A stretch of 28,789 nt of DNA. It comes from a virus. Made by a program: the position numbers and the translations under genes. How positions within the stretch are numbered: the first letter of the stretch is position 1; each line of letters starts with the position of its first letter. The stretch is taken from the IMG/VR virus record IMGVR_UViG_3300050821_016262, positions 1-28,789 of that record; one strand, given 5' to 3'. Of this stretch, positions 1 through 21,213 are shown piece after piece. The notes under the pieces are model-generated. The model saw only the letters and a program-made list of their open reading frames with translations, was not told the DNA's origin and did not search any database.

Positions 1-1973
1 TAATACTGAATAGCATTATGAGGGCCAGCACTAGAAGCAGGTGGTCCTGGAACAATTGGTAGAGTCACCTGAAAATCCTGGTTCGCCCCAATCACAATGG
101 GACCAAACTCCTGGCTCTTGTAGAACTTATTCTGAGCGTCCTGCATGTAGAGAATTACATAGTAAGTGCCTGCAGGAAATGGTATTGCTAGTCCTCCTAT
201 ATTGTTAGCTACAATAGAGGTAACATTGAGAGTTCCTAGAGTAGTAGAAGGCTGTACCGGCACTGCACATACATACATGGGAGGACTGGCAGTCAACGCC
301 CCACGACAGTTCCAAATGAAGTTCCAGTCCACCGGCTGAATGTCGCTCTGCCCACCAAAGATGTATGGTCTGATCTCTTCTGACAGCAGCCGGTCTCTGA
401 CTCCATCAAACATGGCAATTCCCAAGTGGGTCATTCTAACAATGCCGAATCCCGGCACAAACTGAATCGTCCGGGGAGCCACGCAGCCCAAATCAGTCTG
501 GGCCCGCTGAATAGAAAAGTTCGAGGCTCCAAACACGCCATTGATCTGGAAGGTAGAAAACTCCTTGAAGGCTACCAGCGACCCAGTCGGCGGAATCCCA
601 CTCTCAGCAATGGTATAGGTAGCCAGTCCCATTCCCTGCGATCCATCATCTTTATCCAGAAAGGCCACATTCAGGGGATTCCAGGAATTGGGATTATTAA
701 GATCTGACATCTTGAGGCATGAGGGCCCATCAAAGTTATCGCTGGTATTGTTGGGGGAAGTATTGAATACCCATAGTGACCCGGCATAGACAATGGCATG
801 AGCAGCCCCCCGAGGCGCTGGCACCGCATTCACCGGGCCCTGGCTGACCCAGATCACCGTGCCATCAGCGGTTGACTGGCCCAAGGCAGTATTGAAAGCA
901 GGGGCCCCAGCAGCCGTGGTGCCACTCTGGGTAGCCTTGTAGAGCACGCCTCCCAGCGTCATCAGATCCCCGGCTACTTGGGCGGTGGAATTCGTTCGGG
1001 CTGGGTAACTGGCAGTGAAGCTATTAGTCAACGGCACCGTTCCCACTGTGGTTCCATCAGACTGATATGGGGCAAACCCATTGCCCAACGCCAGAATCAT
1101 CTTGTTGGTAAATTGCACAATCTGTGGCAGAGGACTAATATTCCCAGAAATCCCACCCGTTGGCGTAGGCGGCTGGCTGCCAGAAGTTTGCCCACCGATA
1201 CCACTACCACCTCTTCCACCAATGGGATCTCCACCTTGGTTTACTGGTAGATCGGCAGGGAAGTTGAGGATCAGATTTGCTGTTCCATAGACTGGAACCA
1301 CCATGTTATAGAACTGAGTTAACTGAGTGGTATCAGCTACCGGTGGTCCTATGGCAAGGCGGGCACCATCAGCAATATTATCCAAATAGGTAGGAGTGGT
1401 AACCGGAGAAGAATTCAGCCTCTGATAGGTTGGTCCCGGCCCTACTGCAGTCCGGTAAATATTGAAGCCTACTGCATATTGAACAGTGGGCAAGGTCAGA
1501 AGTGCCTTATGGCCTGCCGGGACTACTGCACCTACTCCCAAGAAACCAGGGAATAGACTACTCTCTCCACCGGCTCCATCGAGTGCAGTCACTGCCCAAA
1601 GATAGCTCCCTCCTAGAACTCCACCTGCTCCTCCATCAGCAATAGTAAGGTTTCCAGAAGCCCCTATAAGAATATTGACATTGGGGTTTTTGATCAGACT
1701 AAAGTAGCTGGCAGGCAAACCAGTGGGCTGGAACAGAATAAGCTCTGTAATGGGACCAAATCCTAGAGATGATTGCTGGGGCCCGGTACCCAAGCCAAGG
1801 TTGTTATATACACTGATCAGAAAAGTACCATCAGCAGTGATCAGCCCACCGCGCTTGGTCAACACCAGATTCGAACTTCTGGGATGCGAGCCCGGAGGCT
1901 GGGCAAAAGTGGTCGAGGCTGCATTGACACCCTTGAGCCACTTCTTCTGCGATACTTTTTGAGACTTTGCCAT
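1..1973 (-). CDS. Partial large structural protein, gp10-like stabilisation/tail-hub candidate
   Basis: This reading frame stays open from an ATG at 1973 to the left edge, giving 657 codons with the C-terminus missing. It begins MAKSQKVSQKKWLKGVNAAS and is a beta-rich, Gly/Thr/Asn-rich protein without a signal peptide. Around 1973-1750 it has a segment like the start of phage beta-propeller stem proteins. Around 430-560 a stretch containing LVAFKEFSTFQI and LGCVAPRTIQFVPGFGIVRM recalls packaged-DNA stabilisation proteins of the P22 gp10 type. Around 840-990 it carries a GDLM...DGTVIW module. Its ATG overlaps the upstream stop by 1 nt (TAATG), so it is probably translationally coupled to the adaptor-like gene. 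The coding call is firm; the gp10-like role is inferred from weak motif resemblance plus gene order. A tail fibre or hub protein is the alternative. Confidence 0.85.
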   Translation of the reverse strand, partial: MAKSQKVSQKKWLKGVNAASTTFAQPPGSHPRSSNLVLTKRGGLITADGTFLISVYNNLGLGTGPQQSSLGFGPITELILFQPTGLPASYFSLIKNPNVNILIGASGNLTIADGGAGGVLGGSYLWAVTALDGAGGESSLFPGFLGVGAVVPAGHKALLTLPTVQYAVGFNIYRTAVGPGPTYQRLNSSPVTTPTYLDNIADGARLAIGPPVADTTQLTQFYNMVVPVYGTANLILNFPADLPVNQGGDPIGGRGGSGIGGQTSGSQPPTPTGGISGNISPLPQIVQFTNKMILALGNGFAPYQSDGTTVGTVPLTNSFTASYPARTNSTAQVAGDLMTLGGVLYKATQSGTTAAGAPAFNTALGQSTADGTVIWVSQGPVNAVPAPRGAAHAIVYAGSLWVFNTSPNNTSDNFDGPSCLKMSDLNNPNSWNPLNVAFLDKDDGSQGMGLATYTIAESGIPPTGSLVAFKEFSTFQINGVFGASNFSIQRAQTDLGCVAPRTIQFVPGFGIVRMTHLGIAMFDGVRDRLLSEEIRPYIFGGQSDIQPVDWNFIWNCRGALTASPPMYVCAVPVQPSTTLGTLNVTSIVANNIGGLAIPFPAGTYYVILYMQDAQNKFYKSQEFGPIVIGANQDFQVTLPIVPGPPASSAGPHNAIQY

Positions 1974-3229
1974 TACGGTATGATAATCGGCCCGGTCAGT
2001 CCGCCGGGAACCGTTCCCCTCAATCCATAGTCCCCATACATTCTCATTTGCCGGGGTCCTGCCACCGGCTTATTCGACTTCACCCAAGACTCCAAGGCTT
2101 TCGCTGCTTCTGCCTTCAGGGCCTGGGCTTCCTGACGCTCCTGCTCGGCCTCCCGGAAGGTGCCCAGCATGTAATCCTTGAGAAATGGCTCCCAGCCCGG
2201 AGGCACGCCCAAGGTCACTGCTGCCTGTCCCACTGAATACACATAAGGCATGCGATAACCATTGAGCTCCACGTTGAGCTCTGTGACAGTGGCACCCGTA
2301 CCAAACGCAAAGGGCTGTGTCCCTGCCCAGCCCCGAATACAGTTCTGTAACTGACTCGGAGTCTGTGCGGAGTAGCTGACCACCTCGGAATTGGTGCCAT
2401 CCGAGATCAGTGCATAGCCATCGGCCAGCAACCAGCCTGAGACTCCCGTAATGGGAACATTAATGTCAGTAGCCAGAATTGGGGCCGTGGTGGTAGCCGT
2501 GCCTGCGGTCCGGGAAGGCGTCCAGTAGAGCTCCAACCGAGTTGTATCCGATTGCGCATCTGTCATCAGGGAGATGGAAATATTGGCAGTCAGATTTCTA
2601 TTTCTAAAGGTCTCTGCCTTATTGCCCAGATCCAGCTCCCAACCATCATAGAAGCACTGATCGAGCCGCAACCACTGGCCCTGCAGGGTAGTCACATAGC
2701 GACGCTGGCCCGAGACGGAAGCAATTCCCACAGCATCCTGGATACCACCAGTAATACGAGCTGCTGCTTTCAAGGCGTCATTTAACCAGCGATACATGGT
2801 GGCAGCAGAAACAAATCCACCATCGGTATCTGGTAGATAAGCCGAAGACCTGACTGGAGGAATGCCCGGTACGATGCCATTAAAGTTGAGAATATTCACC
2901 GTACCAAAAGTGGTGATTGGCAAATAGAATGATTCTCCACCAGGAGCGAATCCAAAATAAACTCGCGATGAAACTGTTCCAGCTATTGCACCGTAATTAA
3001 TCTGAATAGCATTATTAAGACCAGACAAGACTACAGATAATTCAGCACTTGGAACTGATTCTCCCCACTGATTTATCTCAGTAACAACAATATAGTATGT
3101 TGTTGCAGAAAGAGTGCCCCCAGTAGTTGGAATGGCACTATTAAGCATAGGTGGTAGTAACACTTGGGGGTTGTCTGGCCCCAGTGCCCTGACATTCATG
3201 ATCAGATCGCCAACCAGTCCCTTAGGCAT
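1973..3229 (-). CDS. Putative head-tail adaptor protein
   Basis: A 418-aa protein with no signal peptide. The N-terminal third is beta-rich (residues about 35-125). The middle contains TMYRWLNDALKAAARITGG (about 143-161) followed by a YVTTLQGQWLRLDQ segment, the helix-then-strand pattern seen in podovirus adaptor/tail-tubular-A-like proteins. Near the C-terminus a charged helix with many Glu, Ala and Lys (about 350-385) follows a FLKDYMLGTFREAEQE segment, which is also usual in this group. The ATG overlaps the upstream stop as TGATG and only a weak GGTGG precedes it, suggesting coupling. It lies just before the hub-like gene, the P22-type order of adaptor then stabilisation protein. The function is inferred from layout and fold pattern. 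Confidence 0.75.
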   Translation of the reverse strand: MPKGLVGDLIMNVRALGPDNPQVLLPPMLNSAIPTTGGTLSATTYYIVVTEINQWGESVPSAELSVVLSGLNNAIQINYGAIAGTVSSRVYFGFAPGGESFYLPITTFGTVNILNFNGIVPGIPPVRSSAYLPDTDGGFVSAATMYRWLNDALKAAARITGGIQDAVGIASVSGQRRYVTTLQGQWLRLDQCFYDGWELDLGNKAETFRNRNLTANISISLMTDAQSDTTRLELYWTPSRTAGTATTTAPILATDINVPITGVSGWLLADGYALISDGTNSEVVSYSAQTPSQLQNCIRGWAGTQPFAFGTGATVTELNVELNGYRMPYVYSVGQAAVTLGVPPGWEPFLKDYMLGTFREAEQERQEAQALKAEAAKALESWVKSNKPVAGPRQMRMYGDYGLRGTVPGGLTGPIIIP

Positions 3230-3558
3230 CAGTTCACCACCGCGCTGAGTGTCACCACAAACGGTCCAACTACTGGATTCACGGAATTCGATGGAGCACT
3301 CTCAATGGCGCTAAACACTGCCGTAACAATATAGCAATAATTTCCTACCGCCACCGTAGAGTCCGTAAAGGTCTTCACTGCTACCGCACTGGCAATAGTT
3401 GAGAATGCGGGCGTGCCGCTACACGTCCCAGTGGCTCGCTTCACATTGTAGGTAGTCCCAGCTGGATTCTGGGTATCCACCCAAGTGAGCGTCACACTGT
3501 GGCTGGTCTGGGCTAACAAAGAAATCGAGAGTAGTAATAGAATTACTAGATATCGCAT
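3229..3558 (-). CDS. Secreted-type fibronectin type III domain protein
   Basis: A 109-aa protein. Residues 1-17 (MRYLVILLLLSISLLAQ) form a textbook Sec signal peptide with a likely cleavage after AQ. The remainder is a single fibronectin type III domain: SVTLTWVDTQNP opens the sandwich, YNVKRATG is the central strand, and YCYIVTAVFSAIESAPSN is the F-G region. Two cysteines at about 46 and 75 could pair after export. GAGG-type ribosome binding (AGAGGTATTT) precedes the ATG and the gap to the upstream gene is 8 nt. FN3 domains are common on phage surfaces and in secreted bacterial proteins; here the leader peptide suggests export. A surface adhesin or accessory fibre is likely, but the ligand is unknown. 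Confidence 0.85.
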   Translation of the reverse strand: MRYLVILLLLSISLLAQTSHSVTLTWVDTQNPAGTTYNVKRATGTCSGTPAFSTIASAVAVKTFTDSTVAVGNYCYIVTAVFSAIESAPSNSVNPVVGPFVVTLSAVVN

Positions 3559-3566
3559 AAATACCT

Positions 3567-6158
3567 CTAATCAGGCGTGGGCCCACTTCCACAATAGCTC
3601 TGGCAAACGTACTGGGTAGCGGTTTGGGCTGAATCAATGGCAGTGAAATTGGCTCCCATGTCTTGCCCATCCGAGCCCGCATTGTGAGCTACCGAGCTTG
3701 CATCCAGCTTGTAGCCATGCCAGTCATTAAGATCAATGGCCGAATTTACTGATGGGCTTACTTGAGTACCGCCACCGCAAAAGTTGGTACCCGTAGTAGG
3801 CGCATTCAGTGCTCCCGAGAAGCCCACTGATTTCCCGTCTGCAGCACTAGCCCCAAAAGTATAAGCCGTGGCCGGGAACTTGAAAGTAGTGGGTGGGCTT
3901 GTTCCCACGCCAATGGTGGCATACTCGGTATAGGCAGGTAGCCCACCGACTTGCGAAATCTTGGTACCATTCTCCTGCCAAGTCACCGTGCCATCCACGG
4001 CACAGCTGAATAGACCACCGCTCAGCGATGGGCTGGACCCCGAGGTTCCATTGGTCACCGCCAGATAATTGTGAGTAGGCGAATTCACTGCCATCACATC
4101 ACCCAGCCGGTAGACGGTGGTATTCACCCGCAATGCAGCATTACGATCTGCCCACATGTTGTGATGAGCGGTCAGTGTAGTGGTATCGAGATTGGCACTC
4201 TCAAAGGCTGTGCCATCCGAGCCACCTAAAGTAGACCACCCAGTCGTTCCGGTCATCACGTTATTGATGAGCGTAAGATTGCGCTCCCTTGAACCGCCAC
4301 CCGGACTAGAGATCCAGGCATCGCCCACCAATGTGTTGTGCTGGATGAGCGCAAAATTGGGCCAGCCGGTGCCATTCGAGAAGGACGTGCAGGTAGTAGT
4401 GGCATTGGCAGTACCAGCATTGGCATAGGTAATAGTCGTGCCTGAGACAGTGGCTGCCGTAGTAAAAGGATAGGTTGCTACATTGAATGTAGTATCTGTG
4501 CAGCCTGACAAGGTAATGGGATCGCCCGCTACCAGGCCAGTCTGATTCTCGCCTACTCCTCCTGCCAGTTGAATAGTTGCAATGGTGCCTGTATTGTTAC
4601 GAGTGACCGAGGTAACCGTGAAACTGTGAGATCCTGACAGCACATTCAGAGTGAAGGCATTGGTCGGACAACTCCACGAACTGCGCAAGCCTATGTCATA
4701 CACCAGATTGTTCTGGAAGGTCACATTGCGGCCTGGAGTAGAAGCCGAAGCACCGTTACCGGTACCATCGCTATTTGCATCGTAGCCAATCCCGGCACAG
4801 CCATGCCGCACCACGTTGGTCTCAAACGTGATGTTGGCCATGGTCTGCACGTAGTTGTCGCAGGGATTCGGCGTACAAGCCCGGTTATTGAGGCCTACTA
4901 CCCGGCCTGCTTGCCCACCTGAGTTATCGCTGTTCTCAAAGATATTGCCTGCCATCAAACACTGATTGCAGCCCTTCAGCTCAAACGAGTTCTTGCGCAC
5001 GCAACTGATATTGACACCACAGACCGATCCCGCTCCCTGCCCATTCCCAAGCCATGCCCACGGATAAGTAAAGCGATTGCGGCGTACTTCAATGTTGACT
5101 GCCGAGACCCCTACTGGCGTGGTTCCAGTCACGCCCCCATCGAAGACTGGGATCGAAGTTCCATCAATCCAGTTATGAACAATCTTAGCTTGCTGAGCCC
5201 CAATCCAGTAGATGCCATGGCCCTCAGCTCCAGGGCGAATGGACTTGGAAATCTGGGAATTCACTACCCAGCAGTTCTTGCCACAGTCAAACTGGATATC
5301 ATTCGATAAAGAGTTCGTGCCAGCTCCCGCATCTGTGGCATCTCCATGCACCCAGACTCGATCAAAGCCATAGTCATGTGGCATGCCCGCAACGGTAGAG
5401 GAATTGTTGCCCATGGAAATCGGCACGCAACAGGCAATTGTGTTGGAGAGTCTCACCTCAGCATCCCGAATAACAATATGATTGGGGCCATTGCCATTCA
5501 CGTCAGCATTGCCACCCTTGATAGCGCTACCATTCACAGTTGCGGTCTCAAGCGTGTACATGGATGAGACATCGTTGTAGGCCGAGGTGTTGGTCATTGT
5601 GCCGTTGGCTAGAGTAAAAGCTCCAGGTCCAACGGTGGTAATCGTGGTCCCTAGCTGATAGCTCATCCCGGTTGCATTACAGTCCGGGTTTCGAATCCCG
5701 GGATCAGTGGACTGCGACAAGTTGTCCTGGATGCCGTGAGTACAAACCGTTTGGCCTACCGTAAGGGGAGTATCCGATTCAAACACAATGCACTTGGTAG
5801 GCATGCCTGCACCCACAGGCTTGGCCAGCAACGTCAGGTTACTATTCCCAGTAATCAACGTCCCATGAGCTATCACCACATGCCACCACTGGTCCGCTGC
5901 TGCCACCCAGTCAGTCATGGCATTGTTAATTCCTGCCCAAGTTGCTGGATAGCTACCCGGGATAGTCTTGGTCACGTCGTAAGTACCACCGGGAGGATTG
6001 CAGGTCTGATCATTGGCCCATGCCTGAGGAAGCTGAGCTATCGTTTGGACTGGTGGTGTTCCCGGAGTATTGATAGATACCCCAGTAATCTTCACACCTT
6101 TTACTGTAACCTGAGACCAGCAGGCCGTAGTGAGAAGAATGATAAGAATGACTCGCAC
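3567..6158 (-). CDS. Exported right-handed beta-helix (pectate-lyase-like) spike protein
   Basis: An 863-aa protein starting with GTG, preceded by GGGAGA at good spacing and directly abutting the upstream TGA. Residues 1-16 (MRVILIILLTTACWSQ) are a signal peptide; a weak lipobox (TTAC) leaves lipoprotein processing possible. Residues about 150-510 have the repeated short hydrophobic turns with Asn ladders (for example IVIRDAEVRLSNT, IEVRRNRF, ITFETNVV, VTFQNNLV) of parallel beta-helix proteins. A roughly 80-residue beta module (about 506-585) interrupts the helix, which then resumes with FALIQHNTLVGD. Near residue 680-730 is a GDVM...GTSG...DGTVTW module. Many cysteines suggest disulphides formed outside the cytoplasm. 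It could be a tailspike that binds or cleaves surface polysaccharide; no catalytic residues can be assigned by eye. Confidence 0.85.
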   Translation of the reverse strand: MRVILIILLTTACWSQVTVKGVKITGVSINTPGTPPVQTIAQLPQAWANDQTCNPPGGTYDVTKTIPGSYPATWAGINNAMTDWVAAADQWWHVVIAHGTLITGNSNLTLLAKPVGAGMPTKCIVFESDTPLTVGQTVCTHGIQDNLSQSTDPGIRNPDCNATGMSYQLGTTITTVGPGAFTLANGTMTNTSAYNDVSSMYTLETATVNGSAIKGGNADVNGNGPNHIVIRDAEVRLSNTIACCVPISMGNNSSTVAGMPHDYGFDRVWVHGDATDAGAGTNSLSNDIQFDCGKNCWVVNSQISKSIRPGAEGHGIYWIGAQQAKIVHNWIDGTSIPVFDGGVTGTTPVGVSAVNIEVRRNRFTYPWAWLGNGQGAGSVCGVNISCVRKNSFELKGCNQCLMAGNIFENSDNSGGQAGRVVGLNNRACTPNPCDNYVQTMANITFETNVVRHGCAGIGYDANSDGTGNGASASTPGRNVTFQNNLVYDIGLRSSWSCPTNAFTLNVLSGSHSFTVTSVTRNNTGTIATIQLAGGVGENQTGLVAGDPITLSGCTDTTFNVATYPFTTAATVSGTTITYANAGTANATTTCTSFSNGTGWPNFALIQHNTLVGDAWISSPGGGSRERNLTLINNVMTGTTGWSTLGGSDGTAFESANLDTTTLTAHHNMWADRNAALRVNTTVYRLGDVMAVNSPTHNYLAVTNGTSGSSPSLSGGLFSCAVDGTVTWQENGTKISQVGGLPAYTEYATIGVGTSPPTTFKFPATAYTFGASAADGKSVGFSGALNAPTTGTNFCGGGTQVSPSVNSAIDLNDWHGYKLDASSVAHNAGSDGQDMGANFTAIDSAQTATQYVCQSYCGSGPTPD

Positions 6159-9100
6159 TCAATTTCTCCCATGACAAATGTAGCTGACTGCTCCGGTCTG
6201 AGCAGCATCAGAGGAAAACTGTAAGGTAGTCGTGTTCAGGGTTGAGATCCAGATACGATGCGCCCCGGGATCAAACTGGATTCCAATAGTGCATTCTGGA
6301 TGGCTAACATAGGTACCAGCAAAAGTATAAGTAGCACTGGTGGTAGCTGCCGAAAAAGCCAACTCTCCTGTCAGATCAGTGTTCGAAGCGGTCCCGGTAT
6401 TGATTCCCGGAGTGCCGGTAAAGGTACCCTGAGCGGCTGTTACCGTGCCCGAAATATAGACATTGCGAGGCCGATTGGCACCTGCGGCTCCAATGTCATA
6501 GGTAGCATCCAGACCTGCAAAGAAGTGACCTGCAGAGTTAATCAGCCAACGCTTGAGAGCAGAGTTAGGAGTAGCACTGGAACCGCTGGGATTTGATATC
6601 CAGAAGTTAATCGCTCCACCGTTGCCTGCTCCAGTCGACGGTCCACCTGTGATATCGGTATCCGTTCCATTCTGATCAGTAGCATTAAAGCTATTCGCCG
6701 CATTTGGCACAGGCACGGCCCGTCCAAGCATCCCACCAAACTCCAAGATGGCGCGGCTGGCAGTATTCCCGGAAGTTGGATCGTTGCGCCCGCCAATCCA
6801 TACATCGTTGGCTGAGTTATTGCCACCTAGCCCGATGCTGCCCGTACTCCAGACTAAAGGCTTGGTTCCCATTTGCTGCTGCAAGGCTCCGGAGTAGGTA
6901 ACACCCGTAATTGAAGGGAGTGACCAGTTCTGGAAATACGTCCCAATGTACGGCGCAGCAGAAGCAGAAATTGTGGTTGCTATGTTGACATCCCACTCAC
7001 GTGGCAGTACACAGCATCCTTGCGGATCACCTGCAGCGGCGTTGTACCAATCAGTTCTGCTCACGCTCACATTCTTGAGGGTGGCCCGCCGTTGGTCTGG
7101 GCGTAATGTACCTCCCGGAACTGACACATCTTGTAATCTTCCAGTAAAGGCAATTCCTCCCTGCCCACTGGCTCCAATCACATCCTCGTTCATATAAACC
7201 AGAGTCATGCCGCCATCCGTGACAGTCCCATGATTCCAGGGCGGCTCGACCACGTAGTTAGAAGTTGAGTCCGGATTCGGGCAAGGCAGGAGACTGTACT
7301 TGGTCACCCAGCCCGCACTGGCAGTGATGGTCTGCGCAGTGTTTGAGGTAATCACTCCGTAACAGCCGATGTTCATCCCGCTAAGTACCGACACCAGCAT
7401 TCCCGTGAACCCGTTCACCGTGTAGTTCGCAACATTGACTGGAGCACCAGTTGGTACAAATGTCGATCCACCAGCATTCGTCCAGTTGTGAGAACTATCT
7501 GGCGAACCGGTTGCAGCTGTCACCAACATCGAAGAGGCTGAGAATGTAGGTGCGGCGTTCGGCGTAAATACACAGCCGCTAGTCGCGCCAGTCCAAGCGT
7601 GAGACGAGTCTGCCGTGCCACTGAGGTTATTCATGGAAAGTGGCACAGGCCCCGAATTATTCGGGGTAGGAAATACTTCCGTCCCAGTGATCCCGGTTAC
7701 GGCCTGAGTCATGGTCTCAGTTCCATTGCAGGTTCCGCTGGTTAATGTACCCGTAACAGTCGCGGTGGAAGTGGCTGCGGTGACTACTGTAGCCGTAGAC
7801 CCGGTTACAGCCTGAGTAAGCGCATCACCTGCCGTAAATAGCTTGATCGTTACTGAGCCAGCAATGGTCTGGTTGGTGTTCGTGATGCTTGTGCTGGTGC
7901 CGCTGCTAGCCCGAATGGGAGCAACTAAAGTTCCGGTACCGTTGGCCGGTCCACCATTGTTTGTGACTTGATAGTATGCCCCGTCTCCACCTACTGGACT
8001 GCCACTGCAAACACTGCCGACTGGAAAGGTTCCTCCGGGAGTAAGGTAGCAAGATTGGTTAATGGTGTTGCTGTCGTAGATTTCAAGCGTGTTGCCAGCC
8101 ACCAGCTTACGACTCTCCGAGCGCACGTCGTACATGACGCATGGACCTTGCGAGAGTTCGCAGTACATATCATAGCCAGTCTGCGTTGTGAATCCATTCT
8201 CAAAACTGACTCCATACATGTAGACGTAGCCGCCACCGTAGTTCGCAAACCCATAGAGAGGGCTGGCTTGAATGTCTCCACCGTACCAGGCTACAGCCAG
8301 CGCGTTTTGAGCGTAAGAACGTCCCGCATTACGCCCGATATTATTGCCACCTAGCTGCCATGCTGCCCCAGTAAATCCGGCCCCGGCACAGTCGTAACAG
8401 TAGATGTTTGAGCCTTGTGCCCCACCCCCGGATTTGGCAATCAGCACGCCCACATCAGTGATGTTGTTGCCTTGAAACGTGTTGTTGTAGAAGTCGATAA
8501 ACTGCGGGCGTAAGTCGTTCCCCTGTGCGCCACTGTAATCCAGATCAACGAGAGCATTGGTATTCGAAGCGCTCGATGCCCAGGAGCAATCATAGAAAGC
8601 TCCATAGGCGTCGGATTGTCCGTCAAGGATGCGCAGGTTGGTGGTGGTCTGGGTGATTCCGCTGAACAGGCGGCTGTCACAAACCACTTTGAAGTTGATA
8701 GCGTGGTAGAACTTTAGCTCCGCGTTGATGTTGTAATTTTGCGGCAGGCGAAGAGTGCGGTTGTAGATATTGAGACCACTACCATTGGTGCGGGCAGTGG
8801 TCAGTCCACCACCAAAAGCAGCATAGATAGCCGCTTGCAGGGCAAGGGTATTGTTGGCAGCAGTAGCGCCGATTCCTGCACCCCACCATTCCGGAAACAC
8901 GTCCTGATGGATTGGTGAGCCAGTGAAATCAATCACGCCATGCCCGGTCGCGCTATCTGCATTCAGAAATATCTGGTGAAAGTCCGGATCTACAATTCCG
9001 CCCCAGATGGTGGCCGTGGCGTTACCCGGCTTCAGCGAGAGCAGACTGTATACCCAGGTTCCCGGAGCCGGATCAACCGTAATGGATTGAGTAGCAGAAG

Positions 9101-10634
9101 TAGATCCGCCTGCGGAGGCATTCTTGTATTCCACGCACATGAATCCCGATGCCGACTGACCAGCCAAGCCTGCTGGTTGGGTGTAGCCCGCCCCGGCAGT
9201 GCAGCCTTCTCCTGTGAATGGCTGCCCACCAAACGCCAGCAGAAATGCACCGGTAAGAGTAGTAGCTGAACCGCTGCTCATGGTGGTTCCGTTGGAGTTG
9301 TTGGAAGCGCTTGTATCCAGCGAGGTCACTGGACCCATCCCGGCAATTTGTGCCACCATCATCATATGCGTAGTCAAAGAGCCGTTGGCAGTGGCTGTAA
9401 TAGTGCATGATCCAGCAGTTGCATTGGAAGCAATCCAGGCACCCTGGTTGCGAGGCTGATTGGGAACAGACTGAAAAACGTGGATATAGAAGTTTCCACA
9501 GTCATCCACAACCTTGGTGGTCTTGAAAGTGAATCCCGGATAAGGAGCTTCCATCACCACCAGCGTATTGCCGCCAGTCACTGTAAAGGCTGGCAGGGAA
9601 CAGGTTGTCCCGGCACCACATTCCGCACTTGTTCCACTGACATACGTTCCACTACCGATGGGAGTAGTCGAGGAAATGAGCTGAAGCGCCCCGCCACCGC
9701 TAAAGTCCAAGGTCACATTGGCCGGGAATAAAGTGTTCGCTATGCGACAGGCTGCTGATGAGGTAGTTGAACCAATAAACCGGATGCTGGCTTCCGTAGA
9801 GCCAATGGTTGATAGCAGTGTGTTCATGCCGTTTGAGGCATCCGTAGACCCATCACAGGTCATCCAGTCACGGGTATCGTAGATAGCTTTAGTCTGAGTG
9901 ACTGGCAATGATCCGGTACCGGTTATGTAGAACGCACGGGCAGGAGTATTAGCAATCGCAGCAGTAGTGTTAAGTCCGGTCCGGAACACCAGGCCATTCG
10001 ATCCCGGATCAGGCAGTCCCCCTCCCCCGCCACCACCTCCACCACCACCTCCACCAGTAGATGAAATGGTTACATTGCCATGACCATCATCCAAGATGGT
10101 GATGTTTGATCCTGCTATCAGATTGAGTAGAGCTTGCGATCCGTTGGGAACTCCGTTGGTCTCAAGAATTACCGTGTAGGGAGGCAGTGTGGCAGCAGCT
10201 GCCTGCAGTTGAGCAGTGACATCCTGAGTAACACCAGTAATAGTGATCAAAGTAGTGAAACAAATGGGTGGTCCCGGGAATACCCCAATCGCGGTACATA
10301 GTGAGAACATCCACTGAGACGGAGTAGGAGTGATTTGTAGATTATCAGCTAGTGAGACTTTGAATTGACCCTTGGAATCGCAAGAGATGGGAACTACGGT
10401 CTGAAATACTGACCCTCCTAGCAAATACGGCCCAGCTCCCGGAGTCGAGTTCTGCCCGGTAAAATTAGCTGATCCACTACAGGTACGATAGATAGCGTTG
10501 AGAGGATCTTTTACTGTGGCAGTAACAGTAGTATGCTGAGCAAGAACACTGATACTCGCGAATAGAATAAAAATTACGATACTTAATTTACGCTGCAAAA
10601 TATCACCCAAAATAAAGATTAGTAGCCTATGCAT
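6159..10634 (-). CDS. Giant exported beta-helix tail fibre/spike with polyglycine linker
   Basis: An open frame of 1,491 codons. The ATG at 10634 has no Shine-Dalgarno and lies 16 nt inside the upstream gene. A TTG at 10598, preceded by GGGTGA, would start exactly at a clean signal peptide (LQRKLSIVIFILFASISVLA) and may be the true start. Order by residue from the ATG: signal peptide about 13-33; beta domain 35-190; 13 consecutive glycines 194-206; first turn of a pectate-lyase-3-like beta-helix about 249-316; inserted beta domain about 330-536; resumption with VFPEWWGA (579-586) and the main helix to about 830; Thr/Gly-rich repeats about 920-1065; a second fibre region; and a C-terminal beta domain ending SYICHGRN. 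The layout is that of a trimeric receptor-binding spike. The enzyme activity, if any, is unknown. Confidence 0.85.
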   Translation of the reverse strand: MHRLLIFILGDILQRKLSIVIFILFASISVLAQHTTVTATVKDPLNAIYRTCSGSANFTGQNSTPGAGPYLLGGSVFQTVVPISCDSKGQFKVSLADNLQITPTPSQWMFSLCTAIGVFPGPPICFTTLITITGVTQDVTAQLQAAAATLPPYTVILETNGVPNGSQALLNLIAGSNITILDDGHGNVTISSTGGGGGGGGGGGGGLPDPGSNGLVFRTGLNTTAAIANTPARAFYITGTGSLPVTQTKAIYDTRDWMTCDGSTDASNGMNTLLSTIGSTEASIRFIGSTTSSAACRIANTLFPANVTLDFSGGGALQLISSTTPIGSGTYVSGTSAECGAGTTCSLPAFTVTGGNTLVVMEAPYPGFTFKTTKVVDDCGNFYIHVFQSVPNQPRNQGAWIASNATAGSCTITATANGSLTTHMMMVAQIAGMGPVTSLDTSASNNSNGTTMSSGSATTLTGAFLLAFGGQPFTGEGCTAGAGYTQPAGLAGQSASGFMCVEYKNASAGGSTSATQSITVDPAPGTWVYSLLSLKPGNATATIWGGIVDPDFHQIFLNADSATGHGVIDFTGSPIHQDVFPEWWGAGIGATAANNTLALQAAIYAAFGGGLTTARTNGSGLNIYNRTLRLPQNYNINAELKFYHAINFKVVCDSRLFSGITQTTTNLRILDGQSDAYGAFYDCSWASSASNTNALVDLDYSGAQGNDLRPQFIDFYNNTFQGNNITDVGVLIAKSGGGAQGSNIYCYDCAGAGFTGAAWQLGGNNIGRNAGRSYAQNALAVAWYGGDIQASPLYGFANYGGGYVYMYGVSFENGFTTQTGYDMYCELSQGPCVMYDVRSESRKLVAGNTLEIYDSNTINQSCYLTPGGTFPVGSVCSGSPVGGDGAYYQVTNNGGPANGTGTLVAPIRASSGTSTSITNTNQTIAGSVTIKLFTAGDALTQAVTGSTATVVTAATSTATVTGTLTSGTCNGTETMTQAVTGITGTEVFPTPNNSGPVPLSMNNLSGTADSSHAWTGATSGCVFTPNAAPTFSASSMLVTAATGSPDSSHNWTNAGGSTFVPTGAPVNVANYTVNGFTGMLVSVLSGMNIGCYGVITSNTAQTITASAGWVTKYSLLPCPNPDSTSNYVVEPPWNHGTVTDGGMTLVYMNEDVIGASGQGGIAFTGRLQDVSVPGGTLRPDQRRATLKNVSVSRTDWYNAAAGDPQGCCVLPREWDVNIATTISASAAPYIGTYFQNWSLPSITGVTYSGALQQQMGTKPLVWSTGSIGLGGNNSANDVWIGGRNDPTSGNTASRAILEFGGMLGRAVPVPNAANSFNATDQNGTDTDITGGPSTGAGNGGAINFWISNPSGSSATPNSALKRWLINSAGHFFAGLDATYDIGAAGANRPRNVYISGTVTAAQGTFTGTPGINTGTASNTDLTGELAFSAATTSATYTFAGTYVSHPECTIGIQFDPGAHRIWISTLNTTTLQFSSDAAQTGAVSYICHGRN
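10017..10055 (-). repeat. GGN triplet microsatellite encoding 13 glycines
   Basis: Thirteen consecutive glycine codons (GGT, GGA, GGC and GGG mixed) form an imperfect triplet repeat inside the giant fibre gene. It joins the N-terminal beta domain to the beta-helix. Slippage here would change linker length in frame without breaking the gene. Confidence 0.9.
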
Positions 10635-11734
10635 GAGAACTGGATCTTGTCTCCTGAGACAACTGTGCCCGTAACAATGGTAGCAGTAGTAGCATTAGAA
10701 GTGGTCTGATGGGGATTAGTCACATCTGCCAAAGTGGTGATATCTACTACTGTACAGCTCCAACCATTCGGAGCGGTGGCCGAATCACCCATGGTGATGA
10801 CTTCAGTGCAACTGGTCGAACCTACCGTAAAGGTTCCCGCTGTGGCCCCACCTGCAGTAGCTGAATCCGTACATCCATTGTTGGTAGTAAACTTAGTACC
10901 AACCGACATGTAACCAGAAGCTTTGACTTTCCCGGTCGTGCTGCCAGCTGTATTGCTGACACCAACTGCGATTACACCCGCTGCTGATCGACTGATAGCA
11001 GTGTCGATAGTGACAGCGTTAAATACACTGTTTGCATTTGCCCACATGAGAGGTACATCAGAGCGGATTACCGGACCATTATTTGAGTCCACGGAAAAGC
11101 CATCAAAGCCACTCGCAGAAAATACCATCTTGCCAGAGTTATTTGCATTGAATCCTATCCCGGTATTCGTGCTACCAGAGAACGAGTAAGCTGGATTTGT
11201 GGTTCCTGAACTGGTCGGAGAAAGAAGTTGAGGGCTGGCACAGTTCGCGCCTCCATACTTAAACTGCCACTGTGTACCCGCCGTGCCGAGTCCCGCCGCA
11301 ATCGAAGCGGTCGCTGCAGCCGTACAGGTGATGTTTGAGAGCCAGTTCGTAAATGCCACTCCAGCAGCATTCCATGTAACTGTCTGCGACATCATGGGGG
11401 CTGATGTAGTGATTGTTCCACCTACCAGAGTGAAATTACCTACTGCATCAGTCGTTAGTCCTGAAGTCCCAGCAAACGATCCTGCACTATTCCACTGCAC
11501 TGAATTTACTGGTGAGCCCGGAGACGATCCAGCCCCAGTTGAAAGAGCAGTCCATGTATTAGCTGGATTACATTGATTTAGACCAATAGTGGTAGCCGTG
11601 CGAAAGTAGATCTGACCAATTACGCAGGTAGCGGGGAGACTAGGACCATTATCAGGGAGCACTCCAATAGTAGGGGTATTTTGCCCCCAAGCCATGCCCG
11701 CTAGAAATATTACTGCCAGTATCCATTTTCCCAT
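10619..11734 (-). CDS. Exported tail-fibre-like protein
   Basis: A 371-aa protein. The start at 11734 is set by a perfect AGGAGG eight to nine bases upstream and by the signal peptide that begins there (MGKWILAVIFLAGMAWGQ, cleavage probably after GQ). The frame is open further upstream, but that would bury the leader. The mature part is Ser/Thr/Gly/Asn-rich with fibre-like strands (SVQWNSAGSFAGTS, FDGFSVDSNNGPVI) and a DTAISRSAAGVIAVG segment of the kind found before the C-terminal domains of phage fibres. The last 90 residues are Cys-containing and end GDKIQFSCIGY, resembling the end of the giant fibre (SYICHGRN). Probably a fibre or shaft protein working with the next gene, whose frame overlaps its end by 16 nt. 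Confidence 0.8.
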   Translation of the reverse strand: MGKWILAVIFLAGMAWGQNTPTIGVLPDNGPSLPATCVIGQIYFRTATTIGLNQCNPANTWTALSTGAGSSPGSPVNSVQWNSAGSFAGTSGLTTDAVGNFTLVGGTITTSAPMMSQTVTWNAAGVAFTNWLSNITCTAAATASIAAGLGTAGTQWQFKYGGANCASPQLLSPTSSGTTNPAYSFSGSTNTGIGFNANNSGKMVFSASGFDGFSVDSNNGPVIRSDVPLMWANANSVFNAVTIDTAISRSAAGVIAVGVSNTAGSTTGKVKASGYMSVGTKFTTNNGCTDSATAGGATAGTFTVGSTSCTEVITMGDSATAPNGWSCTVVDITTLADVTNPHQTTSNATTATIVTGTVVSGDKIQFSCIGY

Positions 11735-11813: not shown

Positions 11814-12293
11814 TCAGCAGGCCAGTCCCTCCAAAACAGATGAAACATCAATGAGGGTGTGTGGGCAGACCGCGCCATAGCGCTGAACCGCATTACAATT
11901 CCAACAAAGCACACGGTACTTATCCTTAGGAAATCCTTCACTCACAATTTCGATATACATTCGATGAATATTGCCTACCCTTCTAACATGATCTTGGCCA
12001 CCACCATTGATATGGTCGATTGTAAGAAATCCACGTTCAGACTCTCCACAACAAGCACACACACTTCCATATGCTTCAATGATCAGATCCCTAAGCAAGG
12101 ATGCTTGATTATGTGAGCCAGCAGGCCTAGGATTCCCATTTCCACACTTGGCCCAATAACGTCGCCGCGAGTACTCATTGATACAAACCTTACAAATGCG
12201 ATTGCGACCATCAGGAGAACGTAACTCACGCGGAAAACACGACAGTGTCTTACTGGCACCGCACTTAGCGCATGATTTAATCAATTCATTCAT
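11814..12293 (-). CDS. HNH endonuclease (free-standing, homing-type)
   Basis: A 159-aa protein with two Cys pairs near the N-terminus (C8/C11, C34/C37) that look like a zinc-binding recognition module. The HNH fold follows: a CACC cluster at 79-82, the catalytic DH at 93-94 in LTIDHINGGG, H102, and a CWNCN motif at 130-134 that closes the zinc site. This is the arrangement of phage and intron HNH homing nucleases. It sits alone between the decoration-like gene and the first fibre gene, has no clear Shine-Dalgarno, and its end leaves an 80-nt non-coding gap in an otherwise compact operon. That is how an invading homing gene looks. The DNA target is unknown. Confidence 0.9.
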   Translation of the reverse strand: MNELIKSCAKCGASKTLSCFPRELRSPDGRNRICKVCINEYSRRRYWAKCGNGNPRPAGSHNQASLLRDLIIEAYGSVCACCGESERGFLTIDHINGGGQDHVRRVGNIHRMYIEIVSEGFPKDKYRVLCWNCNAVQRYGAVCPHTLIDVSSVLEGLAC

Positions 12294-12314: not shown

Positions 12315-12713
12315 TTACATGATCCCTGCGACCTCTACGTCATATGTCTGCGAGTTGTTGGTAGTGGCAATATTGGTGATGTTGATATTAGCCACACCCC
12401 AGTCGTAGAAGAAAAAGAATGTGGAATCGTAGAACAGACTGTTGGAGGTCGCTGCTGAATCCCCATTGTAGATATTGGCGGTGTTAGTGCCATCAGTGGC
12501 AGTAATGGCTCCCACCTTGGTATTCACATTCAGACGGATACCAGCCCCTCCAATCTTGATACGCACATAGCCCACCCGGGGACGTACTGGCTGAAAGTTA
12601 CCCGTGGGAGGACAGAGCACGGAGACATTGTTATTCAGATTGATGTTCGAGAAGTAGACAGCCGGGATACCATCTGCTGCCAGCCAATTAGCAATTGAGT
12701 TCTGAAAGCTCAT
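12315..12713 (-). CDS. Putative capsid decoration or head protein
   Basis: A 132-aa protein with an excellent GAAGGAG before the ATG. After a short N-terminal helix (SFQNSIANWLA) the chain is beta-rich and low in charge, with strands such as PRVGYVRIKIGG and SLFYDSTFFFFYDWGVANINITNI, ending YDVEVAGIM. It follows the major capsid gene directly, the usual place for a decoration or head-stabilising protein. No family is recognised from sequence, so the role rests on position and the beta-rich, soluble composition. A tail-shaft protein is the alternative. Confidence 0.75.
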   Translation of the reverse strand: MSFQNSIANWLAADGIPAVYFSNINLNNNVSVLCPPTGNFQPVRPRVGYVRIKIGGAGIRLNVNTKVGAITATDGTNTANIYNGDSAATSNSLFYDSTFFFFYDWGVANINITNIATTNNSQTYDVEVAGIM

Positions 12714-12727
12714 AGTTGTCTCCTTCT

Positions 12728-12808
12728 CTATCCTTTACCTTTTTCTCCCTTACCACCTCGATTGTTGTGGTTAAGGTTACTTGCTCCGCCTTGTAGGCTA
12801 CGCTTCAT
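12728..12808 (-). CDS. Possible 26-aa basic Gly/Lys-rich peptide after capsid
   Basis: A tiny frame whose ATG shares one base with the capsid stop (TAATG), so re-initiation could translate it. The product starts MKRSLQGGASNLNHNNRGGK and ends in KGEKGKG; it is basic, Gly- and Asn-rich and probably disordered. There is no Shine-Dalgarno of its own. It may be a spurious frame, but the overlap geometry matches other real junctions in the operon. Confidence 0.4.
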   Translation of the reverse strand: MKRSLQGGASNLNHNNRGGKGEKGKG

Positions 12809-13833
12809 TATGTGCTCAATACTTTGATTCCCATACGTGGTGCCAGATCTTCTACCTGCCAGGTTAAGAACATCTGCGAGGTGATCACGTCTTGGTTGGT
12901 GGGCCGCAGCCATGGGGTCAACCGGAAGTAACTACCCGGATGAAAGACCGGGTGCAAATACTTGGTGTTGATAATGTAGTAGACCTGGGCTGCGATGAAT
13001 GGGTCATCCAGAACCACGGCATTATTGAACAGGAAGTGGTAACGGAAGCCAGCCTGCACCGCTTCCCGGTCCTGCATGTTGTCGCCGTAGCGGGCAAAGT
13101 AGCTGGTCCCGGCTCCCATGAACTGGGCCTTGAAGTTCACGTAGCGGGTACGGTCGCCCAGAATTAGATCAGGCTCGTCATAGCCCAGTTTGACGGTGGC
13201 GTAGGCCGTGTCCATAATCACGGCTGTAATCGCCGTGGCAGTAGTCGACTGTGGAGTAGGTGGCTGCCAGAAAGAGTTGGCCGCCACTGAGCGGTCAATA
13301 CCCGCAATCACGTTGGTAGCAATAGTGGCTGTGGTAGGCGAAGCAGGTGTGCCCGATCCAATCCAAGACTCGATGTCATCAATGTCATTAGCAGTGTTCT
13401 GGGGAGTGGTATGCCAGAGGGCTCTTGAGAGCTTCTGCAGGAAAGAAGACGATGCCGCTTCTACCTTCATCTGAATGATGTCGAGGCCTGACCCGGCATT
13501 GCGGATTACATCCGTGACCGGAATGGAGATAGCTTCGTAGTAGTCTCGCCACACCTGATTGGCAGGCTGGATGGAGTCTGTCACCGTGGTATTCAGCAAC
13601 TGGGCCCCAACGTAGGCACCACCCGTCAGCTCCTCGGTAAAGAGTAGCGGGTAGATCAGCTCGCCACCCTTGAAGACTTTGCCCTTGCGGCACAGCGCCC
13701 AAAAGGTAGACGAAGGCAGCATCACGTTGTCGGCCAAGACCGGCTCGATGGCCTTCTGGGTTATGGCCTGCATGGTATTCGCAAGCACTGCCGGAGGTGC
13801 GTTAATCCCAGTTCCGAATACGCCGCCTGCCAT
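12808..13833 (-). CDS. Major capsid protein (HK97-fold candidate)
   Basis: A 341-aa protein with a strong AAGGAG upstream of its ATG. It follows the scaffold-like gene and precedes a decoration-like gene, the standard head-module order. The sequence is soluble, mixed alpha/beta, without signal peptide or membrane segment. The N-terminal arm (about 1-50) leads to VFKGGELIYPLLFTEELTGG, an E-loop-like strand pair. A long helix (about 105-145, LDIIQMKVEAASSSFLQKLS) could be the spine helix. A dimeric beta region and a C-terminal strand segment (ITSQMFLTWQVEDL) resembling the end of P-domain/A-domain capsid proteins complete the chain. The family is not identified exactly; the call rests on length, order and general fold. 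Confidence 0.8.
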   Translation of the reverse strand: MAGGVFGTGINAPPAVLANTMQAITQKAIEPVLADNVMLPSSTFWALCRKGKVFKGGELIYPLLFTEELTGGAYVGAQLLNTTVTDSIQPANQVWRDYYEAISIPVTDVIRNAGSGLDIIQMKVEAASSSFLQKLSRALWHTTPQNTANDIDDIESWIGSGTPASPTTATIATNVIAGIDRSVAANSFWQPPTPQSTTATAITAVIMDTAYATVKLGYDEPDLILGDRTRYVNFKAQFMGAGTSYFARYGDNMQDREAVQAGFRYHFLFNNAVVLDDPFIAAQVYYIINTKYLHPVFHPGSYFRLTPWLRPTNQDVITSQMFLTWQVEDLAPRMGIKVLST

Positions 13834-16461: not shown

Positions 16462-16674
16462 TTACTCCGGCAGGCGAATCCACCAGCGCCCGTTGGGTTC
16501 TTGGTAGGCTGCTACTCCGAATACGATGATCTCTCCACTCTGGCACATCTGCTGAGTACGACGAATAGAACGGCGATAGAGAATGGAGAATTCCTTTAAG
16601 GTAACCCAGTGAGATTCTGGGGCAAGTACCCAAGGAGGAGTAGTAGATTCCAGTCGCTCAAGAATGGTATTCAT
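16462..16674 (-). CDS. Excisionase-like winged-helix DNA-binding protein
   Basis: A 70-aa protein. Residues 23-68 (WVTLKEFSILYRRSIRRTQQ, then GEIIVFG...NGRWWIRLPE) match the pattern of MerR/excisionase-type helix-turn-helix with a wing: a first helix beginning TLKEF, a recognition helix of the RRT type, and a strand pair ending in a basic/aromatic strand. The ATG overlaps the portal stop by 1 nt (TAATG). Small proteins of this fold act in excision or transcription control; its place in the late operon, away from any integrase, is odd. The DNA target is unknown. Confidence 0.75.
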   Translation of the reverse strand: MNTILERLESTTPPWVLAPESHWVTLKEFSILYRRSIRRTQQMCQSGEIIVFGVAAYQEPNGRWWIRLPE

Positions 16675-18389
16675 TACCTCACTGTCCTCCCTTTCTTGAT
16701 AGTAGATAGCAAGCGCATAGCCTGCTCCTGATCAGCCTTCTCGGCAATTTCTTTGGCCCCCGGCCAGCCTAACGTGGTGAGCAAGGTTTCTGTGTCCACC
16801 TTACCTGCCTGATTGAGTGCCAACGCAGTCTTTCTGAGATTCTTGGCTGACATGACTTCAAGGCTTCCCGGGTCAACCATAATGTTCCAGGAAGAGTAGT
16901 CCTGGATGGGAGACCACTCGGTCATTGAGAACTCGCCCTCTTCCATGGTGGGAAACTTCAGGCCACGACGCTCGCCAAAAAATTTGGCCAGCAGGTAGAA
17001 CACTAACTCTGCTGTTTTCTGAGTAGAGCGTGCAGACATTCGCGCACGAAGCTTCGTAAGCTTTGAAGACTCTTCAATAGCCGATTCGTAGAGCTCGACT
17101 GAGAGATTTCCGGCTCCGGGTTGTCCACCTCGGGCCCCAGAATAGCCCTGTAGTTCTGCTTGGGTAGAGAGCGCATATTTGATGTACTCCAGGTAAGAGG
17201 CTGGGAAAGCATTGGGGGTAATGAACTTGGGCTCCCCGTGGTTCATGTTGACAACTTGGATCTCTCCCGGCAAGCCGCCGAACTTGTCGGCATCTAATCC
17301 TGATCCATCGGGTAGAAGCCAGATCCCGTTATTACACCGATAGGCATTCTCAAACGCTTGGGTAAGAGAACGTTCAGCAAACTCCTGCAGAGTACGAGTG
17401 TAACGAATTGGAGGAGGTGCCCAAAATCCCTCCAGTTTAGGAAGACCCCAGTACGGTATAAATGGGAATTTACGATGGGGAGTCGGATTGTCGCCATCGT
17501 AGAGGACGTAGCCGTCACCATCAATAGTAAGACGGCCATTGGGGAACCTCAGTTTGAACTTGGGGGCTGACAAGAATTTATCAGTAGACTTCGAACCAGC
17601 TGCCTCTTTCACCTTTTCAGGCGTAGGATCAAGCGTGTAGCAGAAACGCACGTTGACCAGGCCCGATGAGGGCACGCCCTTGCCTGCTGGTGAGCCTCCC
17701 ATGCTGGTCATGGGACCAAAGGGCATGGACATGGAGGGAACTGTGCCGCCTACCGGGTTACGAGCAGATGGCCGAGGTGGTACCCGGAAGCCCGTGTCGG
17801 GCCAACGACGTCTGACTGCATCGAGTGTCATGGGCCGGGTATAGACCACGTATTCCCAGCTGTCGTCGAGGGCTGTGGGATCAGGATCGAAGTCATCCGG
17901 GTCAATCGCGTCCAGCCATACTGAACCCCTGCCGTTGTAGGCAAACGGGTCTATGCCTGCAGCAAGAATTCCCGTACCCCCAAAGTTAGCCCACAGTTGA
18001 GCCATCATGATGGAGAGGGAATACCATTCCTGCTTCCAGATGCCGCGATAGATGCGCTCCCGCTCGCTGTCACGCTTGCCATCTTCTCCGGTGAGGTAGA
18101 TAACGGGAGTGTTCTCAGAGAGCTCAGCAGTTTCTGACAGCATGAACATCTGCAGCTGGGGCACGTCGACGTGGGGACGGAAGATGAGTGGACCGGTGCC
18201 CTGGGCTGCGTCCAGCGAGTAGAAATCCTTGACGTTGCGGAACCAATCGGGTCCCAGAAGATCCCGCTTGGCATCTTTAGCAATGCGTTGCAGCAGGTCA
18301 ATTTGCTGAATAATAGTGGGGCGTTCGTCAGAGCCAGATTGGTTGGCCTTCATTGACCAACTGGGACCAGTCATGACGGCAGTACTCAT
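16674..18389 (-). CDS. Portal protein
   Basis: A 571-aa protein of normal portal length. The N-terminal region holds ERIYRGIWKQEWYSLSIMMA and YNGRGSVWLDAIDPDDFDPD, the wing strands typical of portals. The middle has IPYWGLPKLEGFWAPPPIRY, where portals commonly carry a Tyr/Pro-rich segment. Helical LYESAIEESSKLTKLRARMS and the following MSARSTQKTAELVFYLLAKFF fit the stem/tunnel helix region, and the C-terminal part contains LEVMSAKNLRKTALALNQAG. The ATG overlaps the upstream stop as ATGA. It is the dodecameric ring through which DNA enters, working with TerL encoded upstream. The assignment rests on length, gene order and these segments. Confidence 0.85.
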   Translation of the reverse strand: MSTAVMTGPSWSMKANQSGSDERPTIIQQIDLLQRIAKDAKRDLLGPDWFRNVKDFYSLDAAQGTGPLIFRPHVDVPQLQMFMLSETAELSENTPVIYLTGEDGKRDSERERIYRGIWKQEWYSLSIMMAQLWANFGGTGILAAGIDPFAYNGRGSVWLDAIDPDDFDPDPTALDDSWEYVVYTRPMTLDAVRRRWPDTGFRVPPRPSARNPVGGTVPSMSMPFGPMTSMGGSPAGKGVPSSGLVNVRFCYTLDPTPEKVKEAAGSKSTDKFLSAPKFKLRFPNGRLTIDGDGYVLYDGDNPTPHRKFPFIPYWGLPKLEGFWAPPPIRYTRTLQEFAERSLTQAFENAYRCNNGIWLLPDGSGLDADKFGGLPGEIQVVNMNHGEPKFITPNAFPASYLEYIKYALSTQAELQGYSGARGGQPGAGNLSVELYESAIEESSKLTKLRARMSARSTQKTAELVFYLLAKFFGERRGLKFPTMEEGEFSMTEWSPIQDYSSWNIMVDPGSLEVMSAKNLRKTALALNQAGKVDTETLLTTLGWPGAKEIAEKADQEQAMRLLSTIKKGRTVR

Positions 18390-18832: not shown

Positions 18833-19068
18833 CCCGATCCCCTGACTTCAGCTACTACCAGTGATGGTGAACCCGAGCGTAGCACTACCTGTTGGGCTGG
18901 CAGATCCCAATCAATGAGCACTTTACCACCGGAATCTAATTTCTCCAAGGATTGCGCAGAAATCCGAAGTTCACCGCCTGCTTGGTCAATGAGGCCCAGT
19001 ATTAAAAGGGTCAGATAGCTTTCCCGGGAGAGGGCTCCCTGGGTTCTGGGAAATGCGTTCATTATCAC
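18649..19068 (-). CDS. Unknown protein following TerL
   Basis: A 139-aa protein from a GTG overlapping the TerL stop (GTGA), with GAGG at good spacing; an ATG two codons later is the alternative. Residues 10-85 are mixed alpha/beta (ESYLTLLILGLIDQAGGELR, KVLIDWDLPAQQVVLRSG). A Pro/Gln linker follows, then a C-terminal charged helix (TEDQILAAMEKRMRDDQLRQ). No family recognised. Coupling to TerL suggests a packaging or head role. Confidence 0.7.
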   Translation of the reverse strand: MIMNAFPRTQGALSRESYLTLLILGLIDQAGGELRISAQSLEKLDSGGKVLIDWDLPAQQVVLRSGSPSLVVAEVRGSGWTQPNPQQPTQSSEPSKHRVMTEDQILAAMEKRMRDDQLRQWREQGAAVVGNMPPPDERQ

Positions 19069-20870: not shown

Positions 20871-21213
20871 AGGTTCCATCCCGGAGATAATCTGTAGCAC
20901 ACTTCTTGTGGTACATAGTATTATTGCTGATATTGGGTCTCATATTTTCAGGGTCATCGTACTTCTTGCAGTAAACACACTTCCGCCAATTCGGATTGCC
21001 ACAAGCCTTCTTAGCAGCCATCCGTTGATGAATCAGTAGGTGATATGCCTGGTTAGGAAATATAGCCAGATTACTATTCTCATTGCTCTTTCCAACCCAA
21101 TGATGGACAACAGCACCAGGAGGAAGCTTATGGCCTAAAGCTTTTTCAGCGATAATAATATGTTCTTTTTTATCTCCCACTCTGCGGTATCCTCGATCAT
21201 CAATGTATGTCAT
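20833..21213 (-). CDS. HNH endonuclease next to terminase
   Basis: A 126-aa protein. Residues 30-65 hold the HNH core: LPPGAVVHHWVGKSNENSNL (HH 37-38, Asn 46/48), then FPNQAYHLLIHQRM (H58, H62). A Cys cluster follows (C71, C79, C82, C105) that likely binds zinc. Phage HNH proteins beside terminase can take part in packaging cleavage, while others are homing enzymes; this one has the AYHxLLHxR form common in homing-type phage HNH proteins. It overlaps the upstream gene as ATGA and the TerL start by 38 nt, so it is built into the operon rather than loosely inserted. Confidence 0.85.
   Translation of the reverse strand: MTYIDDRGYRRVGDKKEHIIIAEKALGHKLPPGAVVHHWVGKSNENSNLAIFPNQAYHLLIHQRMAAKKACGNPNWRKCVYCKKYDDPENMRPNISNNTMYHKKCATDYLRDGTYVFSRPRRKASR

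Follow-up and report, generated by a model that had tools for sequence, protein, structure and literature searches.

The cytoplasm is where tailed phages are assumed to finish their particles and where the known tail fibres, which carry no leaders, are assembled; in both respects ordinary fibres differ from the module described, and interpreted, here. The coat proteins of filamentous phages do have Sec leaders, but they are membrane-anchored and the particle is extruded. The present module resembles them in that putative virion proteins bear Sec leaders; it differs in belonging to a tailed phage and in having mature chains free of membrane segments. In Bacteroidetes, substrates of signal peptidase I (SPase I) follow a Q-rule, with Gln at position +1 in 71% of them on average (PMC5837995). 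Five prophage genes of Porphyromonas gingivalis, of unknown function and not identified as fibres, carry such Q-rule leaders; like the genes studied here, they are phage genes that would expose a Gln through a host-style SPase I leader (PMC10367356). Tail fibres and signal peptides are thus both known, and it is their combination as the rule of a lineage that appears new; a search of the open-licence literature turned up no account of a tailed phage that exports its tail fibres through Sec.

Four leader-bearing genes in a virion operon

The window analysed here is a whole virus record of 28,789 nucleotides (28.8 kb), with the virion operon of a short-tailed phage on its minus strand. The portal position is followed by a scaffold-like gene and the major head protein (Table 1). 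The original prediction was that four consecutive genes (3229-11734, minus strand) encode proteins with Sec signal peptides and a Gln after the cleavage site, and that the flanking structural genes have none. Leaders were assessed with a home-made scorer of charge, hydrophobic core and small-X-small site (threshold >6), which gives values of 6.8-9.5 for eight signal peptides of E. coli. All four window proteins have strong Sec/SPase-I-like leaders by this scorer, with a basic n-region, a hydrophobic core and a small-X-small site, and the predicted +1 residue is Gln in every one. No other window gene of at least 90 aa scores above 5.9. In related phages, scores above 6 are reached by only 2/214 capsid, adaptor, nozzle and decoration genes and by 10/437 of those lying upstream of the capsid, and all 79 leaderless fibre homologues of another family, that of Mx8 p64, stay below 6. 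Because these null sets rarely or never pass the threshold, chance hydrophobic N-termini are excluded.

Are the start codons right? Comparison with homologues upheld them against the objection that the leaders might be wrong starts, because relatives with divergent leaders share one cleavage position and the mature start. The relatives of the 371-aa protein carry the leaders MKRAIISVLAALALLSALAPLTAW.., MNKWLILLILSGLSGYGLAQ and MKNALWLLTLILAASLPLWAQ, and the L002 homologue of the 1,479-aa protein starts directly with MKRLFILASFILLLSLHAIAQ. Clear ribosome sites precede three of the four genes; for the 1,479-aa protein, upstream alternative starts would extend the chain to as much as 1,491 aa. 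Export of the four proteins through Sec is very likely; both it and oxidative folding are well supported by evidence from the lineage (below), namely leaders that are kept although their sequence is not, Gln at +1 and cysteines that occur in pairs.

The four genes are consecutive and all leadered, as predicted, with two corrections: the gene immediately before the first of them, that of the 371-aa protein, encodes an HNH protein, and leadered genes also occur outside this block in a near-complete relative. In this relative (G001), a leadered 380-aa protein with 3.7% Cys (L206:6007-7149) and a leadered 131-aa protein (L008:21895-22290) lie outside the four-gene block, one of them in the non-virion part. 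The HNH gene of the window extends into the open frame of the 371-aa gene when that frame is taken at its greatest length.

Table 1. Features of the window, with predicted leaders given up to the cleavage site and followed by the first two mature residues (SD, Shine-Dalgarno motif)
Feature	Position	Strand	Remarks
Large terminase	19065-20900	-	virion operon
571-aa gene	16674-18389	-	portal position, from gene order
Major head protein	12808-13833	-	phrog_9953, E 1.8e-20; bait for collecting the phage lineage
132-aa decoration-like protein, no leader	12315-12713	-	
HNH endonuclease gene	11814-12293		between decoration-like gene and first leader-bearing gene
371-aa leader-bearing fibre-like protein	10619-11734	-	first gene of the module; homologues L002, L003, L006, all leadered
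Leader of 371-aa protein, MGKWILAVIFLAGMAWG / QN	11684-11734	-	score 7.5; SD AGGAGG
1,479-aa fibre-like protein	6159-10598	-	TTG start 10598; alternative starts up to 10634
Leader of 1,479-aa protein, MQRKLSIVIFILFASISVLA / QH	10539-10598	-	score 9.9
N-terminal anchor-like domain (~120 aa) of 1,479-aa protein	10179-10538	-	transthyretin-like beta-sandwich (predicted); two covarying Cys pairs
863-aa leader-bearing Cys-rich protein	3567-6158	-	GTG start; SD GGAG
Leader of 863-aa protein, MRVILIILLTTACWS / QV	6114-6158	-	score 6.7, weakest of the four; without lipobox
109-aa leader-bearing protein	3229-3558	-	single fibronectin-III domain; 3mpc_A, E 1.4e-6
Leader of 109-aa protein, MRYLVILLLLSISLLA / QT	3511-3558	-	score 8.6; SD GAGG
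418-aa adaptor-like virion protein, no leader	1973-3229	-	weak SU10 adaptor match
Virion structural protein, cut by window end, no leader	1-1973	-	phrog_3287, E 4.7e-6

Leaders and cysteines across the lineage

With the capsid protein as bait, 80 loci of related phages were collected, with capsid identities of 42-100%. In the close relatives (capsid 93-100%), homologues of the 1,480-aa (1,479 aa in Table 1) and 371-aa proteins are just 26-66% identical, and every one of them is leadered. The long fibre's N-terminal domain (N-domain) is detected by profile in 41/50 related records, in open frames ranging from ~250 to 2,150 aa, a conserved N-domain being joined to a variable distal part. Most relatives examined have a long fibre followed by one to four more leader-bearing proteins. 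In the 80 loci, the leadered fibre genes are placed either between those for decoration and adaptor or behind those for internal virion proteins, as is usual for fibre genes.

Among 58 N-domain homologues, 51 have a leader and seven begin at the domain. The leaders of the homologues are on average 20% identical to those of the window; when unselected substitution of the four window leaders was simulated, only 0.5-6% still scored above 6 at 21-27% identity. Across most of the tree, leaders have been kept at ~20% identity, much more often than drift would allow, and are therefore under selection. By this comparison the leader is a lineage-wide trait, maintained as a leader despite the divergence of its sequence. 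Gln is found at +1 in 41/51 leaders, which is like the 71% average of Bacteroidetes Q-rule substrates; the lineage differs from these in that its leaders belong to phage proteins and that Shine-Dalgarno motifs are frequent (at least four bases at 29/51 leadered genes).

The comparison suggested at the outset, with phages whose fibres lack leaders, turned out to be provided by nature, as the seven leaderless N-domain proteins belong to sister phages. In four of them, an in-frame stop precedes the start by no more than ~20 codons, and the remaining three begin at the very stop codon that ends the gene before. Miscalling and frameshifts were rejected as explanations, given these stops and the failure to see a leader in the frames that were inspected. 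In the tree of the domain, the leaderless proteins occupy three separate positions within leadered ones; this requires three changes, at least two of them forced by well-supported branches. The tree is unrooted, and leader loss rather than gain is the likely direction. In phage L024 (L187:2498-5131 and L187:5128-6012), a leaderless N-domain protein has directly behind it a strongly leadered, fibre-like protein of 877 aa, and it is possible that this pair represents a split into a virion-bound adaptor and an exported fibre.

The mature proteins had also been described as Cys-rich, as if folded outside the cytoplasm. The mature parts of the 371-, 1,479-, 863- and 109-aa proteins hold 8, 28, 22 and 2 cysteines, and leadered module proteins contain 1.9-2.3% Cys vs 0.65% in neighbouring genes, a roughly threefold difference. 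The mature N-domain of the window's group has four invariant cysteines, which co-occur in pairs: across the 58 proteins, Cys1 and Cys2 are both present in 20, both missing in 38 and never found singly, while for Cys3 and Cys4 the corresponding counts are 38, 15 and five. Joint changes on the tree number four for the first pair and five for the second (three and four of these are forced by supported branches), so the pattern is not one inherited event. Such joint gain and loss is what disulfides would give. In a leaderless group (L132, L133, L135), the N-domain is without any cysteine, although almost all leadered proteins of the clade in which this group is nested carry both pairs. Export does not strictly account for the cysteines, however: the leaderless L188 and L189 are equally Cys-rich, and the correlation between cysteines and leader is therefore not a strict one.

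Fibre identity and the place of assembly

The long fibre and the 371- and 863-aa proteins have no counterpart among the families of Pfam and PHROGs, nor was a match for the fibres found in isolate phages; fibres are often too divergent for this. A model of the N-domain (pLDDT 81, mostly ~90 or more over residues 1-120) shows a transthyretin-like sandwich. Its best neighbours include the tail and neck fibres of cyanophage A-1(L) (Z 8.1 and 7.9), phage tail-tip proteins and predicted tail-fibre proteins, matches of middling strength given that a Z of ~8 can reflect a common arrangement and that the best Foldseek PDB match has an E of 0.009. The modelled N-domain thus resembles phage tail-fibre anchor domains. 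Ordinary tail fibres, such as those of A-1(L) (PDB 8kec, 8keg), are like the module in that an anchor-like N-terminal domain, in the module a predicted beta-sandwich, precedes long, variable distal parts rich in Gly, Ser and Thr, and that the genes lie near connectors or after internal virion proteins. The 863-aa protein has the look of a parallel beta-helix by eye only (model pLDDT 26), and an accessory protein of a relative ends in a choice-of-anchor D domain. A run of ~13 glycines (9960-10060), common to the window and L002, lies in the long fibre between the N-terminal domain and the distal part.

The 54-kb record of the near-complete relative was read through most of its length, and the only large proteins of fibre-like composition in it are the leader-bearing ones; the other genes of such composition encode the 132-aa decoration-like protein and small leader-bearing proteins. 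If the leadered proteins were not the fibres of the virion, this phage would be without a recognisable fibre. We consider it probable that they are the virion's own fibres.

How would exported fibres reach the particle? The fibre proteins would be made with a Sec leader and translocated unfolded, and host SPase I would cleave the leader before Gln. The mature fibres would then fold in the periplasm, where the cysteine pairs can oxidise, while fibreless, DNA-filled particles form in the cytoplasm. At cell lysis, the soluble mature fibres would meet these particles and dock via the N-terminal beta-sandwich domain of the long fibre. The docking step seems chemically reasonable, because free fibres or tailspikes of T4 and P22 reportedly dock onto finished particles in vitro. 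Of the readings offered at the outset, that virions acquire fibres during release is the best fit, given the tail-fibre-like domain, the leaderless sister versions and the near-complete relative with no other fibre gene in sight. We infer export with cleavage, disulfide formation, presence in the virion and docking at lysis from features read by sequence comparison (leaders, covarying Cys pairs, missing anchors, leaderless homologues) and from a predicted anchor fold. Against this reading stand the Cys-rich, leaderless L188 and L189, the middling fold matches, the no more than putative link of the 863- and 109-aa proteins to the virion, the need for free fibres to meet particles at dilution after lysis, and the occurrence in other phages of leadered proteins without an assigned function (PMC10367356). 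That the four proteins form an exported fibre module of a short-tailed phage, with the whole chain from Sec export and cleavage before Gln through periplasmic folding to docking at lysis, is an explanation that we favour by a small measure.

Could the module be exported without being part of the virion? As soluble or envelope-bound adhesins, its proteins would alter the infected cell, for example through superinfection exclusion by receptor occupation, clumping or the neutralising of debris. The leaders and the extracellular-type domains (FnIII, and choice-of-anchor D in a relative) would suit this role, and the Q-type leaders on phage genes of P. gingivalis offer a precedent (PMC10367356). 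However, neither a lipobox nor a membrane segment was found in the mature chains of the four window proteins, for which lipoproteins and membrane anchors were rejected on these grounds. Among the leader-bearing module proteins, a lipobox occurs in 1/50 and a membrane-like segment likewise in 1/50. The window proteins also differ in the missing lipobox cysteine from superinfection-exclusion lipoproteins of the T5 Llp and phi80 Cor type. The case for envelope decoration, which the original prediction had put forward, is weakened because both features are absent. Furthermore, the leaderless N-domain homologues of sister phages fit a virion part, and the near-complete relative would be left without a fibre gene. 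An adhesin role outside the virion therefore seems unlikely, if by no means negligible.

It is more doubtful still that the hydrophobic N-termini stay uncleaved, whether to act within the particle or to tether the fibre to the inner membrane as assembly proceeds. The window leaders are indeed short (15-20 aa), and the site in the 863-aa protein, CWS before Q, is unusual. Yet 41 of 51 homologues retain the small-X-small site with its following Q, though their hydrophobic stretches vary without constraint, and the leaderless relatives would then lack an essential part. Least probable of all is passive inheritance, in which the start of a host secreted protein was captured by a fibre gene and has lingered there without any function, or export merely keeps sticky fibres out of the cytoplasm: the leader style is like that of secreted proteins on a Granulicella plasmid, and a Granulicella protein gives a weak profile match over the leader and first strands, but leaders that persist so far above the expectation from drift are selected.

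Leadered fibres in Myxococcus phages, the host and minor loci

The capsid of the window's lineage has distant relatives (22-25%) in cultured isolates, among them the Myxococcus phages Mx8 and Mx9. Among 96 mostly virion genes of six isolates, a single one scores above 6, Mx8 p64, which matches tail-fibre families and whose Mx9 homologue is annotated as a putative tail fibre protein. Its 28-aa leader, ending in ASA before T, precedes a fibre motif (RNxxGTYxLPxGNPVV) at which the homologues of Bradyrhizobium and Stenotrophomonas phages begin. In 80 IMG/VR homologues of p64, the leader is found only in Mx8's own record, and the other 79 sampled begin at the motif. The Mx8 and Mx9 leaders are identical, so selection on them cannot be judged. 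These fibres are like those of the window's lineage in that a leader directly precedes an N-terminal fibre motif that is conserved, and their phages are P22/Mx8-type podoviruses with a distantly related major capsid protein; they differ in the unrelated motif and in a cleavage site without Q. The leadered fibre of Mx8 and Mx9 looks like a separate origin. In the searched passages of papers on Mx8 and Mx9, fibre export goes unmentioned.

In its widest form, the proposal is that virions of the lineage reach completion outside the cytoplasm: every receptor-binding protein would be Sec-exported and oxidised in the periplasm, and would join the fibreless particles only at or after lysis. The route would have arisen separately in Mx8-like Myxococcus phages. 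We put this forward tentatively, as a conjecture with close to even prospects. If true, it would add an extracytoplasmic step to the assembly of tailed phages and give phages disulfide-stabilised receptor-binding proteins, and fibres of co-infecting phages could mix at lysis (phenotypic mixing). The sister phages with a leaderless N-domain, together with the cultivable Mx8 and Mx9, make the question of export directly testable. For phage annotation, it is a warning that fibres could be overlooked, or labelled as secreted proteins of host type.

Which host provides the Sec machinery? In secreted proteins of Granulicella (Acidobacteriota), Gln is at +1 in 11/25 by the home-made scorer, and in more if seemingly miscalled sites are corrected by eye; this enrichment is similar to that of Bacteroidetes, so the host may belong to either phylum. 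On Granulicella plasmids, the N-domain profile gives only a weak match, over a leader and first strands, and the module proteins have no BLAST match in 300 kb of Granulicella plasmid DNA. With the patterns used, a search of genome contigs gave no hit related to either the N-domain or the capsid protein; a 13-member alignment was too divergent for pattern search. The sequence comparisons weakly suggest an acidobacterial host. The suggestion that the genes were taken from a host secretome may hold for the leaders and some accessory domains (FnIII, choice-of-anchor D), but not evidently for the anchor domain.

Some minor loci deserve mention. Three related phages encode short, strongly leadered proteins of ~112-123 aa well upstream of the capsid gene (L054:4454-4822, L059:4448-4819, L066:3545-3883), with the mature start TTPRLIQVTLGTGATQ...; they have the look of virion-type beta proteins and belong to a family different from the fibre module. 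A 123-aa protein with a lipobox-like LAAC (L205:7102-7473), encoded near a putative membrane protein, may be the outer-membrane spanin of a lysis cassette. On the terminase side of the window, three consecutive genes (22353-25464) look by eye glycan-modifying or methyltransferase-like, and they are conserved in L002 and in the record to which it belongs.
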